Made by a program: the position numbers and the translations under genes | Part shown: positions 32,004 through 64,000 of the stretch, piece after piece | How positions within the stretch are numbered: position 1 is the stretch's first letter | Layout of the letters: each line of letters begins with the position of its first letter | The notes under the pieces: model-generated | What the model was told of the DNA's origin: nothing | Databases searched by the model: none | Seen by the model: only the letters and a program-made list of their open reading frames with translations | Assembly (NCBI GenBank): GCA_027045875.1 | Contig: JALUAG010000023.1 | Coordinates: 1-64,000, forward strand | Length of the DNA: 64,000 bases | From: Alphaproteobacteria bacterium | GTDB lineage: Bacteria; Pseudomonadota; Alphaproteobacteria; Geminicoccales; Geminicoccaceae | Reading direction: 5' to 3'

Positions 32004-32885
32004 TCAGCTCCTGCCGTTCTCGGCCGGGGCCGGGCGGAACGGCCGACGCAGCTCCTCCTGCGCCTCGATGCGGCTGCGTGCCCGATCGCCGAGGCGTCGG
32101 GCGAGGGCGCCGACGAGCGCCTCCACGACGGCCATCGCCGGCGCCAGACTGTCGTAGATCGAGGGGGAAGCGACCGGGACCGGCAGCAGGTGAGCGGCCA
32201 CCCGCTCGATCGCCGAATGCCAGGGATCGGTGACCAGCACGACCCGCGCTCCCCTTCTCGCCGCATGTTCGGCGAAGGTCAGGACATCCGGCTGGTAGCG
32301 GCGGAAGTCGAAGCAGACAAGCACCGTCCGCCGGCCGATGTCGAGCAGATGGTCGGCCCATTTCTGCGTCTGCCCGTCGACCAGCACCACCTGGGGCCGG
32401 ACGCCGCGCAGCAGATCGGCCATGTAGCCGGCCAGCCGGCCGCTGTAGCGGCCGCCGAGGAGGTAGACCGTCCGGCGGGTATCGGCGAGGAGCCCCACCA
32501 CGGCCTCGATCTCGCTGGCCACCACCAGCGATTCGGCTTCCGCGAGCGCAGCGCGGATTTCGGCCAGATGACGGCGCACGAGGGCCGCGTCGCCGCCCGC
32601 CGGCACATCGTCACCCGCGCGATAGCGGGTGAGGGGCGACTGCAGCGTGGCGGCGAGCTGTTCGCGCAGCTCGCCCTGAAAGGCATTGTAGGAGGGAAAG
32701 CCCAGCTTGCCCGTGAAGCGCAGCACGCTCGCGGTGCTCACGCCGGCCCGCCGGGCCAGCGCCTGGACCGTCTCGAGGCCCGCCAGCGGATAGCGCCCGA
32801 GCAGCACGTGTGCCACCCGTCTTTCCGCCTTGGTCAGTTCGGGAAGCCGCGCGCGGATGCGCTCGGCCAAGGTCGTCCGCGTCAA
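32004..32885 (-). CDS. MurR/RpiR-family transcriptional regulator
   Basis: This 293-residue regulator has an N-terminal RpiR helix-turn-helix (LTKAERRVAHVLLGRYP; ALARRAGVSTASVLRFTGKLGF, residues 17-65). A C-terminal SIS domain contains TVYLLGGRYSGRLAGYMADLL near 140 and ARVVLVTDPWHS. SIS domains usually sense phosphorylated sugars or small ligands. It is divergent from the Liv-type binding-protein gene and upstream of the glutamine-synthetase-like gene. A palindrome overlapping its own promoter suggests autoregulation and control of the nitrogen-compound locus. Confidence 0.85.
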   Translation of the reverse strand: MTRTTLAERIRARLPELTKAERRVAHVLLGRYPLAGLETVQALARRAGVSTASVLRFTGKLGFPSYNAFQGELREQLAATLQSPLTRYRAGDDVPAGGDAALVRRHLAEIRAALAEAESLVVASEIEAVVGLLADTRRTVYLLGGRYSGRLAGYMADLLRGVRPQVVLVDGQTQKWADHLLDIGRRTVLVCFDFRRYQPDVLTFAEHAARRGARVVLVTDPWHSAIERVAAHLLPVPVASPSIYDSLAPAMAVVEALVGALARRLGDRARSRIEAQEELRRPFRPAPAENGRS

Positions 32886-59851: not shown

Positions 59852-60853
59852 TCAGTCGAATTCGACCGAGACCGTGCGGCCGCTTCGCAGGGATTCGTAG
59901 GCCGCATCGGCGAGGATCAGGGCCCGGCGGCCGTCCTCGAAGGTCACCGGCGGCTCGCGCTTCTCCTCGAGGGCCTCGATGAAGGCGTCGAGCTCGCGCA
60001 CATAGGCCTCGCGGTAGCGTTCGATGAAGAAGTGGAGGAACGGATCGCGGGCTTCGGTGTGCGCGGCCGTCCAGCGCTCCAGCGTCGTGGGACGCATGTT
60101 GTCGGCGAGGATCGCCCCCCGCTCGCACACCGCCTCGATACGCTGATCGTAGCCGTAGACCGCGCGCCGGTAGTTGTTGATGCAGACCTGGATGCCGCTT
60201 TCGGTGCGCAGCAGCACCATGGCCGTGTCGTGATCGCCGAGCTCGGCCACCACCGGATCGATCAGCGCGGCGGCGAAGCAGCTCACCTCCACCGGCTCCT
60301 CGGGCAGCAGGAAACGGGCCATGTCGAAATCGTGGATGGTCATGTCCCGCAGCAACCCTCCCGCCACCTCCATGTAGGCGCGCGACGGCAGCTCCGGATC
60401 GCGGCTGGTGATCAGCAGCTGGCGCAGGCCGCCGAGCTCCCCCTCCCGCAGGCTTTCCCGCAGGCGGGCGAAGGAGGGGTCGAAACGGCGGTTGAAGCCG
60501 ATCTGGACGAAGGGCTCGAGGGGTGCGATCTCCGCCCAGCAGGCGTCCACCCGCTCGCGGTCGAGGTCGATCGGCTTCTCGCACAGGATGGCCTTTTCCG
60601 CCTTCGCGGCGCGCGTGATGAGATCGATGTGGGTGTCGGTGGAGGAGGCGATCAGCACCGCATCGACCTCGCCGTCCTCGAGGATCTCCTCGACCGTCGT
60701 CGCCACGCGGGCTCCGTGCTTCCCGGCTACCGTCTCGGCGGCCGGCCGGACGACGTCGTAGACGGCCACCAGCCTCGCCTGCGGGTGAGCGGCGATATTG
60801 TCGGCGTGCATGCGACCGATGCGGCCGGCACCGAACAGGGCGAAACGGACCAT
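59852..60853 (-). CDS. iolG: Inositol 2-dehydrogenase
   Basis: The 333-residue Gfo/Idh/MocA oxidoreductase has the Rossmann start FALFGAGRIGRMHADNIAAHP, the ILCEKPID motif (catalytic Lys near 96), QIGFNRRFDPSFARL, and GGLLRDMTIHDFDMARFLL with the Asp-His pair near 170. This combination is that of IolG, which oxidises myo-inositol to scyllo-inosose. The adjacency to iolD and iolE supports the call. It is transcribed away from them, with the cation-efflux gene between. Confidence 0.88.
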   Translation of the reverse strand: MVRFALFGAGRIGRMHADNIAAHPQARLVAVYDVVRPAAETVAGKHGARVATTVEEILEDGEVDAVLIASSTDTHIDLITRAAKAEKAILCEKPIDLDRERVDACWAEIAPLEPFVQIGFNRRFDPSFARLRESLREGELGGLRQLLITSRDPELPSRAYMEVAGGLLRDMTIHDFDMARFLLPEEPVEVSCFAAALIDPVVAELGDHDTAMVLLRTESGIQVCINNYRRAVYGYDQRIEAVCERGAILADNMRPTTLERWTAAHTEARDPFLHFFIERYREAYVRELDAFIEALEEKREPPVTFEDGRRALILADAAYESLRSGRTVSVEFD

Positions 60854-60899: not shown

Positions 60900-61823
60900 T
60901 CAATGGGGGGCGACCAGCCGCTTTTCGCGCTCCGGACAATGTTCGTCCGGAAATTCGATCTCGAGGCTCGTGTGGTGGATCGAGAAACGCTCGGCGAGGA
61001 GGCGCCGGGCAGCGGCCTTGATCTGCCTCGCATGGTCGAGATCCGCATCGCCCACGACGATATGCGCCTCGAGCGCATGTTCCCGCTCGTCGAACGACCA
61101 GACATGCAGGTGGTGGACGTCCCTCACGCCTTCGATCGCCGACAGGCCCCCCGCGACCTCCTCGAGATCGAGATCCGGCGGTGTGCCTTCCATCAGGATG
61201 CGAATGGCGGGCCCGATCTCGCGGCCGGCCTGCCACAGCACGTAACCGGCGATGCCGAGGGTGACCAGCGGATCGACCACGGTCCAGCCGTAGAGCAGGA
61301 TGGCCGCTCCGGCGACGATCACCGCCACCGATCCGAGGGCGTCGGCGAGATTGTGGAGAAAGGCCGCGCGGATGTTCATGCTGCCGCGGGACGGGCGGAA
61401 GGTGAGGGCGACCGTGGCGAGATCGATCACCAGCGCCACGCCGGCGATGATCACCACCAGCCAGCCATCCACCGGCACCGGCGTCATCAGACGGGCGATG
61501 CCCTCGGCGACGAGATAGAGGCCGATGACGATCAGGGTAGTGAGGTTGATCAGGGCGGCGATGATCTCGGCCCGCCGGTAGCCGAAGGTCATCCCGGCGT
61601 GGGCCGGTCGCCGGGCGATGCGCCGGGCCAGAAGGGCGATGGCGAGCGACAGGGCGTCGCTCAGATTGTGCACCGCGTCGGCGATGAGGGCGAGGCTGCC
61701 GGCCACCACGCCACCCGCGATCTGTGCGACCGTCAGCAGGAGGTTGACGCCCACGGCCCAGAAGAGCCGGCGGTCGGTGCGCGTGGCCTCTGCCGGTGGT
61801 GGCGGGAGGTGATGCGTGCCCAT
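60900..61823 (-). CDS. Cation diffusion facilitator (CzcD-type) efflux protein
   Basis: This 307-residue membrane protein has six helices and a cytoplasmic tail. The metal-site motifs are LIADAVHNLSDALSLAIALLA near residue 48 and AFLHNLADALGSVAVIVAG near 155. The C-terminal domain has VRDVHHLHVWSFDEREHALEAHIVV. It exports zinc or related divalent metals. It diverges from iolD, so it shares the palindrome-bearing control region with the inositol genes, although the functional link is not obvious. Confidence 0.88.
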   Translation of the reverse strand: MGTHHLPPPPAEATRTDRRLFWAVGVNLLLTVAQIAGGVVAGSLALIADAVHNLSDALSLAIALLARRIARRPAHAGMTFGYRRAEIIAALINLTTLIVIGLYLVAEGIARLMTPVPVDGWLVVIIAGVALVIDLATVALTFRPSRGSMNIRAAFLHNLADALGSVAVIVAGAAILLYGWTVVDPLVTLGIAGYVLWQAGREIGPAIRILMEGTPPDLDLEEVAGGLSAIEGVRDVHHLHVWSFDEREHALEAHIVVGDADLDHARQIKAAARRLLAERFSIHHTSLEIEFPDEHCPEREKRLVAPH

Positions 61824-61874
61824 CGCAGCCCTTTCCTTTCGCGGCCCCTTCGTGGACCGGATGTTTCACGTCCC

Positions 61875-61906
61875 GCGGAAAATGGAACGCACGTTTCGTT
61901 TTCCGC
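61875..61906. promoter_or_regulatory. 32-bp imperfect palindrome, candidate inositol-repressor operator
   Basis: Arms 61875-61889 and 61892-61906 match at 13 of 15 positions around a 2-base centre. The inner part reads GGAA-N6-TTTC, one base from the GGAA-N6-TTCC pattern I recall for the rhizobial IolR regulator. It lies directly upstream of the predicted iolD -35 box and between divergent genes. Confidence 0.6.
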
Positions 61907-61907
61907 T

Positions 61908-61935
61908 TTGCCGACGGCGGCGGCAGCGCTAGGAT
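61908..61935 (+). promoter_or_regulatory. Predicted iolD promoter
   Basis: TTGCCG (61908-61913), 16 bases, then TAGGAT (61930-61935), four of six matches each, beginning one base after the palindrome and 64 bases before the iolD ATG. Confidence 0.5.
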
Positions 61936-61998
61936 GCCCCTCCGTCGGGGGAGGCGCTACCCGAATTCGAGCGGGTCGCCAGCGAGAAGAGGGATCCC

Positions 61999-63843
61999 AT
62001 GAAGACCGTCCGGTTGACCATGGCGCAGGCGCTCGTGCGCTATCTGATGGCCCAGCGAACGAGGATCGGCGGCGAGGAGCTGCCGCTGTTTCCCGGCGTG
62101 TTCGCGATCTTCGGTCACGGTAACGTCACCTGCCTGTCCGAGGCCCTCGAAGCGGTCAAGGAGGACTTCCCGACCTGGCGCGGGCAGAACGAGCAGGGGA
62201 TGGCCCTGGCCGCGCTGGGCTTCGCCAAGGCCAGGAAGCGGCGCCAGATCATGGTAGCCACATCCTCGATCGGGCCCGGGGCGGCGAACATGGTCACCGC
62301 CGCCGGGGTCGGGCACACCAACCGTCTCCCCGTCCTGCTGCTTGCGGGGGACTATTTCGCGAGCCGGGCACCCGATCCCGTCCTCCAGCAGGTGGAGCAC
62401 TTCGGCGATCCCACGGTGAGCGTCAACGACGCCTTCAGGGCGGTCACCCGCTACTGGGACCGCATCACCCGCCCGGAGCAGATCGTCGAATCCCTGCCCC
62501 AGGCGGTGGCCACCATGCTCGATCCGGCCGACTGCGGTCCGGCCTTCCTCGGTCTCTGCCAGGACACCCAGGGAGAGGTGTTCGACTACCCGGCCCGCTT
62601 CTTCGAGCCCGTCCTGCACGAGGTGCCCCGGCCACGTCCGGATCGGGGCCAGCTGCGGGATGCCGCCGCGCTGCTGGCGGCGGCCGAGCGGCCGCTGCTG
62701 ATCGCCGGGGGCGGGGTGCGCTACTCCCTGGCCGAGGACGAGCTTCTGGCCTTCGCCGAGCGCCACAACGTCCCGGTGGCCGAAACGGTGGCCGGACGGG
62801 CGGTGCTGCCGCACGAGCATTCCCTCAACGTGGGGCCGATCGGCATTCTCGGCTCGGCCAGCGCCAACAATCTCGCCGCCGAGGCGGACGTGGTGGTGGC
62901 GGTCGGCACCCGGCTGCAGGATTTCGTCACCGGTTCCTGGTCGCTGTTCGCCGAGGACGCCCGCTTCATAGGGATCAACGCCGCCCGTTTCGACGCGCAC
63001 AAGCATCGCGCGCAGCCCGTGGTTGGCGACGCGCGGGTCGCGCTTTCGGAGCTCTCGGAGGCGCTCGGGTCTTGGCGGGCGCCGGAGAGCTGGTCGCGCC
63101 ACGGGGCCGAGGAATATGCGGCCTGGAACGCCTTCGTCGATCGCAGGACGGCACCCACCAACGCCGAGCTGCCCGCCTATTCCCATGTCGTCGGTGCCGT
63201 CAACCGGCTGTGCGACGATACCGACCTCGTGCTGACCGCCGCCGGCGGTCTTCCCGGCGAACTCTGCATGAACTGGCGGCCCAGGGGCCGCGACACCTTC
63301 GACTGCGAGTTCGGCTTTTCCTGCATGGGCTACGAGATCTCCGGCGCCTGGGGGGCCAAGATGGCCGATCCCTCGCGCGAGGTGATCACCATGCTCGGCG
63401 ACGGCAGCTACATGATGCTGAACTCCGACATCTACAGTTCGGTGCTGACCGGCATGAAGCTCGTCGTCGTCGTCTGCGACAACGGCGGCTTCGCGGTCAT
63501 CGACCGGCTGCAGCGGGCCAAGGGCATCCCCGGCTTCAACAACCAGCTCGAGGACTGCCGGATCCGGGAGCTGGTGCCCGTCGATTTCGCCAAACACGCC
63601 GAGGCGATGGGGGCGATCGGCATTTCGGTGCGTGGCATCGGCGAATTCGAGGAAGCCTTCCGCCGGGCCAAGGAGGCGGACCGCACGACGGTGATTCACA
63701 TCCGGGTCCATCCCCGCGACTGGACCGAAGGCAACGGTGCCTGGTGGGAAACCGGCACCCCCGGCATCAGCGTGCGGGACGGCGTGCGCAAGGCCTTCGA
63801 GGAGCATCTCGCGGGCAAGCGCCGGCAGCGTCTCGGGGTCTAG
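61999..63843 (+). CDS. iolD: 3D-(3,5/4)-trihydroxycyclohexane-1,2-dione hydrolase
   Basis: The 614-residue thiamine-diphosphate enzyme opens the inositol-derived ring to 5-deoxy-glucuronate. It begins [19 protein letters not shown], with [16 protein letters not shown] near residue 37 and [17 protein letters not shown] (ThDP Glu). In the C-terminal half are the ThDP-binding [21 protein letters not shown] near 460 and [14 protein letters not shown]. The N-terminal segment and length are typical of IolD rather than acetolactate synthase. It is followed 13 bases later by iolE. Confidence 0.95.
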
Positions 63844-63856
63844 GCGGAGAGGGGCG

Positions 63857-64000
63857 ATGGCGGTCAGACTGGGCATCAATCCGATCGGCTGGTCCAACGA
63901 CGATCTGCCGGAGCTGGGCGGCCACATCCCCCTCGAGCAATGCCTCGCGGAGGCGAGGCTCGCCGGTTACAGCGGCATCGAAAAGGGGGGCAAGTTCCCG
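63857..64000 (+). CDS. iolE: Inosose dehydratase, 5' part
   Basis: A 48-codon frame runs to the window end: [20 protein letters not shown] followed by [39 protein letters not shown] and the GIE-x-G-x-KFP pattern are typical of IolE, which dehydrates scyllo-inosose one step after IolG and one step before IolD. The purine-rich GGAGAGGGG precedes the ATG. The gene continues outside the window. Confidence 0.88.

Follow-up and report, generated by a model that had tools for sequence, protein, structure and literature searches.

A predicted IolR-type operator of two paired boxes upstream of iolD in a Geminicoccaceae genome

The intergenic region upstream of iolD in the DNA analyzed here (64,000 nucleotides of contig JALUAG010000023.1, hereafter the window, with its contig referred to as C23) carries two 16-bp boxes whose centers lie exactly 30 bp apart, and the site is very probably the operator at which the RpiR-family regulator IolR, encoded by the same genome on contig C5, binds and represses transcription on the iolD side. 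The proximal predicted IolR box, TGGAACGCACGTTTCG (61883–61898, plus strand), is the core TGGAA-N6-TTTC(A/G), which resembles GGAA-N6-TTCC with a right half, TTTC, that is one base off; the distal predicted box is TGGACCGGATGTTTCA (61853–61868, plus strand). In a PWM trained on 31 boxes that carry no more than one mismatch, from which the window’s own two sites were left out as carrying two mismatches each, they obtain the best and second-best scores of the 64-kb window (16.7 and 14.9, the next site reaching 8.8), while the count of sites scoring at least 10 in the window is not above that in whole-window shuffles (7 in 192 kb). Position and conservation make an IolR-type predicted operator before iolD, as the original prediction had it, a well-supported assignment, with the unit corrected in size and a second box added. 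We regard the site as a further operator of an already known type, in a tandem layout that is likewise well supported. It widens the known regulon for inositol to a family that has received little study and has mostly metagenomic genomes, and it comes with a corrected regulator assignment.

To follow the site through relatives, we drew on an IolD search of 60 genomes, 26 of which matched at 1e-100, and on further named records, and counted as an iolD-side box any regex match of the GGAA-N6-TTYC type within 400 bp before the gene. Such a box precedes iolD in 7 of the 24 genomes of the family in which iolD was matched, both same-genus genomes included, and the remaining 17 have no regex box within that distance; in at least two of these box-less genomes, G016 and G026, iolD is preceded by iolC and iolB. 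The position is identical (-115, regex start) in all three genomes of the window’s genus, and G009, G013, G021, and G022 carry boxes at similar places. In an alignment of seven iolD promoters the core TGGAA-N6-TTYC is conserved, and the distal box, which the original prediction did not contain, surfaced there as a second conserved stretch, retained in the same-genus genomes G001 and G002 and weaker in other genera.

The same alignment places -35-like and -10-like hexamers, mostly 17 bp apart, downstream of the core. The predicted -35 in the window is TTTGCC (61907–61912, plus strand), similar in all seven promoters, and the predicted -10 is TAGGAT (61930–61935, plus strand), 17 bp further on and identical in G000 (the window’s genome), G001, G002, and G022; a consensus σ70 scan of 61780–62010 found no promoter, and it is because of this cross-species conservation that we infer a TTTGCC-17-TAGGAT promoter. 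Relative to an assumed start at 61942, the box centers lie at -51.5 and -81.5, upstream of the predicted -35. The downstream gene, iolD (61999–63843, plus strand, 614 aa; TIGR04377, 842.8 bits against a cut-off of 715), is probably co-transcribed with iolE, which begins at 63863 on the plus strand and runs on past position 64000 (TIGR04379, 383.4 bits at C23:63863–64720). Shortly past iolE lies a gene for an FnrL-type regulator (L013:5633–6358, contig C23 ~65432–66157), and two of the family genomes, G019 and G005, each hold two IolD-like genes (1e-100 or better; L035/L044 and L037/L045), with second copies at 58% and 53% identity.

Across the operator, the first minus-strand gene encodes a CDF-family cation transporter (60900–61823; TIGR01297, 245.4 bits), followed downstream by iolG, encoding inositol 2-dehydrogenase (59852–60853, minus strand; TIGR04380, 401.6 bits against a cut-off of 355). 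Among the loci examined, a CDF gene separates iolG from the operator in the window’s genus alone, in all three of its genomes; in G009, G013, G021, L052, L054, L055, and L064, iolG and iolD are immediate divergent neighbors. An operator working in both directions would make the CDF transporter part of the inositol regulon, and the layout predicts a cation-efflux transporter co-regulated with inositol breakdown.

A search for the same motif before other iol genes, as the original prediction had suggested, recovers predicted boxes in the same genome before iolC and between the transporter and iolR genes, and all three of its iol promoters carry a box pair. A single perfect box, TGGAATACACATTCCA (L157:2482–2497, contig C46), precedes an operon for an SBP_bac_1/UgpA-like ABC transporter, which may be another target of IolR, and the locus of the best iolA (methylmalonate-semialdehyde dehydrogenase) candidate, L216 (C30:62084–63517), holds no box with a PWM score of at least 9. 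Regex boxes on C6, C87, C97, C72, and C54 were set aside, all of them falling inside long open frames.

The paired layout recurs in the family. Among close pairs, defined as boxes 10–130 bp apart with PWM scores of at least 10, 21 of the 36 in family loci are spaced 29–31 bp, and ten local shuffles of these loci gave zero close pairs; the binomial chance under even spacing, about 7e-25, overstates the case because related genomes are not independent. Pairs at 29–31 bp occur in three promoter classes (iolD, iolC, and iolR) and five genera, with spacings of 30 (iolD), 30 (transporter/iolR), and 31 bp (iolC) in the window’s genome. Outside the family, 66 loci (L061–L126) yield only three close pairs at a PWM score of at least 8, two of them near iolD, at 29 and 30 bp (L061 and L062). 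A strict paired pattern run over 385 alphaproteobacterial genomes places 4 of 45 listed occurrences, distributed over 40 genomes, at 30 bp, with no obvious excess; this is a weak negative, the sample containing only 4 family genomes and the strict pattern missing G000 itself, whose paired boxes carry mismatches. In a literature search confined mostly to open-access papers, no title or abstract opening described tandem IolR boxes. The near-fixed spacing offers a testable prediction on how an RpiR-family regulator assembles on DNA.

The window’s genome contains four RpiR matches, and the one on C5 (match extent C5:24754–25641) is very probably IolR, judging by its neighborhood and phylogeny. Its gene adjoins iolC-iolB: it is divergent from genes for a periplasmic binding protein of the rhizopine type (398.6 bits, below the cut-off of 420) and a permease, followed by iolC (NF047869) and iolB (TIGR04378), and two clusters of predicted boxes flank it, one on each side. 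In a tree of 43 rows the C5 protein groups with iol-linked RpiR proteins of other alphaproteobacteria (37 rows, 95/90). In the family's 24 iolD-bearing genomes, a box at iolD is found in 6 of the 12 with an IolR match (1e-60 or better) versus 1 of the 12 without, an association that is suggestive only (two-sided Fisher p 0.069). G001 has the box and no IolR match in a genome that is 90% complete; the IolR-positive G014, G016, and G026, with no iolD box, have boxes by iolR; regex boxes are absent near the RpiR match of G003 and of G004, and the single one in G005 is far from that genome's match.

We propose that each box, in the stretch from which CDF-iolG and iolD-iolE diverge, would take up one IolR dimer. 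Because the boxes are regularly set 30 bp, or about three helical turns, apart, the two dimers could form a tetramer or show cooperative binding. When inositol is absent, IolR bound beside the -35 would hinder RNA polymerase, and dimers on both boxes would repress iolD-iolE, and probably also CDF-iolG, until inositol breakdown starts and one of its intermediates releases IolR, as proposed for rhizobial IolR. Repression of iolD-iolE is proposed because deletion of iolR in Caulobacter is reported to derepress idhA, ibpA, and iolC (PMC2597717) and because the published model for Sinorhizobium meliloti, as told in PMC8877191 after Kohler and colleagues, has IolR released by the intermediate DKGP.

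The 32-base palindrome announced by the original prediction is indeed present: GCGGAAAATGGAACG-CA-CGTTTCGTTTTCCGC (61875–61906, plus strand), located between the minus-strand CDF gene (start 61823) and the plus-strand iolD (start 61999), has 13 matching arm pairs out of 15 about a 2-bp center and encloses GGAA-N6-TTTC at 61884–61897, also as described. Its end was put one base before the -35 box, which holds for a hexamer TTGCCG and not for TTTGCC, which directly abuts the palindrome at 61907. A chance palindrome devoid of function would agree with the window’s statistics: arms matching in at least 13 of 15 pairs with spacers of 0–10 bp occur at six places (9 rows; simulated mean 6.15 rows), those with a spacer of 2 in 3 rows against 0.75 expected, and GGAA-N6-TTYC once against 1.27 expected. 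Neither palindrome quality nor motif count, within chance as both are, was accepted as evidence on its own, and the case for an operator rests for this reason on position and conservation. Yet the site keeps its position across genera, is paired at 30 bp, and has like boxes at other iol promoters, which has already largely refuted an origin by chance; we hold that origin to be the least probable of all readings. That the whole palindrome is the operator, a single protein reading its extended arms, is very improbable too: all eight outer pairs match here, the sole such case among the 46 different box contexts of the family loci, but the outer arms differ in the aligned same-genus G001 and G002, where 5 of 8 and 3 of 8 pairs match, an 8/8 case appears somewhere in 89 of 2,000 permutations, and mean outer symmetry over the 46 contexts is only slightly raised (2.48 versus 2.10 permuted, sd 0.18). 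On alignment and permutation test together we reject the 32-bp palindrome as a conserved unit, and a genome-wide search for the full 32-mer with at most 3 mismatches returned only the self-match. Loss of conservation had been named as what would speak against the palindrome, and this applies to the outer arms and not to the 16-bp core; on the sequence comparisons above, the predicted functional unit is the 16-bp core, and the palindrome is that core with a lineage-specific, possibly accidental, extension.

The identity of the regulator and the sense of the regulation admit alternatives as well. The original prediction had nominated the RpiR-type protein encoded within the window (32004–32885, minus strand), a genuine member of the family with HTH_6 and SIS domains on the same contig as the operator. 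Its gene, however, is some 29 kb distant, close to a glutamine-synthetase-like gene, and the only regex box of the window is the proximal one at iolD; moreover, RpiR genes near iolD in many alphaproteobacterial loci have the C5 protein as their best match (that of L050 scores 256 bits to it versus 52 to the window’s RpiR), and in the tree the latter falls outside the iol-linked group, its exact place being unsure among some long branches. On neighborhood and tree it is very probably not IolR, and we give it scarcely any more credit as the regulator than chance as the source of the site. Less easily dismissed, if still unlikely, is that IolR activates or acts dually at iolD, a tetramer on the upstream boxes contacting the RNA polymerase α subunit, with repression kept for iolC and iolR, whose promoters may overlap with boxes. 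The boxes do not fit repression cleanly in that they lie upstream of, and not over, the predicted core promoter with its conserved -35 and -10, and the RpiR protein SpNanR has been proposed to form an activating tetramer (PMC12713135); against this stands the derepression reported for the Caulobacter iolR deletion. Somewhat more credible, though still unlikely, is a model that joins both senses, in which IolR would act as a spacing ruler, a tetramer needing two boxes 30 bp apart whose placement relative to the -35 sets repression (iolC and iolR) or upstream control, possibly activation (iolD), and in which the inositol regulon of the window’s genus would have taken in the CDF metal transporter. 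Repression of iolD by IolR bound to the two boxes remains our preferred reading.

This reading draws its closest parallels from the IolR operators of alphaproteobacteria, namely Caulobacter crescentus and the rhizobia, which as reported in PMC2597717 share with the present system the GGAA-N6-TTCC motif, the targets (iol genes and a sugar ABC transporter), and an RpiR-type regulator. The distal box has 13 of 16 bases in common with the functional motif 1 of Caulobacter iolC (TGGACCATATGTTCCA), mutation of which derepresses, while mutation of the second iolC motif is described as being without effect in the medium employed (PMC2597717). Two differences stand out against that account: pairs here are often 29–31 bp apart, whereas the motif positions given for Caulobacter iolC are separated by 59 bp, and the iolD-side boxes often read TTTC where the known operators have TTCC (PMC2597717). 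In Ensifer aridi, iolC is stated not to be induced in an iolR mutant (PMC8877191), which sits less easily with plain repression. Beyond the inositol systems, the likeness extends to SpNanR of Streptococcus pneumoniae, an RpiR protein likewise proposed to bind as a tetramer to a palindrome and a second, degenerate site (PMC12713135). The SpNanR system is nevertheless distinct in that it serves a sialic acid regulon, acts as an activator, and recognizes another palindrome together with a half-site 23 bp downstream (PMC12713135), in contrast to the two boxes set 30 bp apart before iolD.
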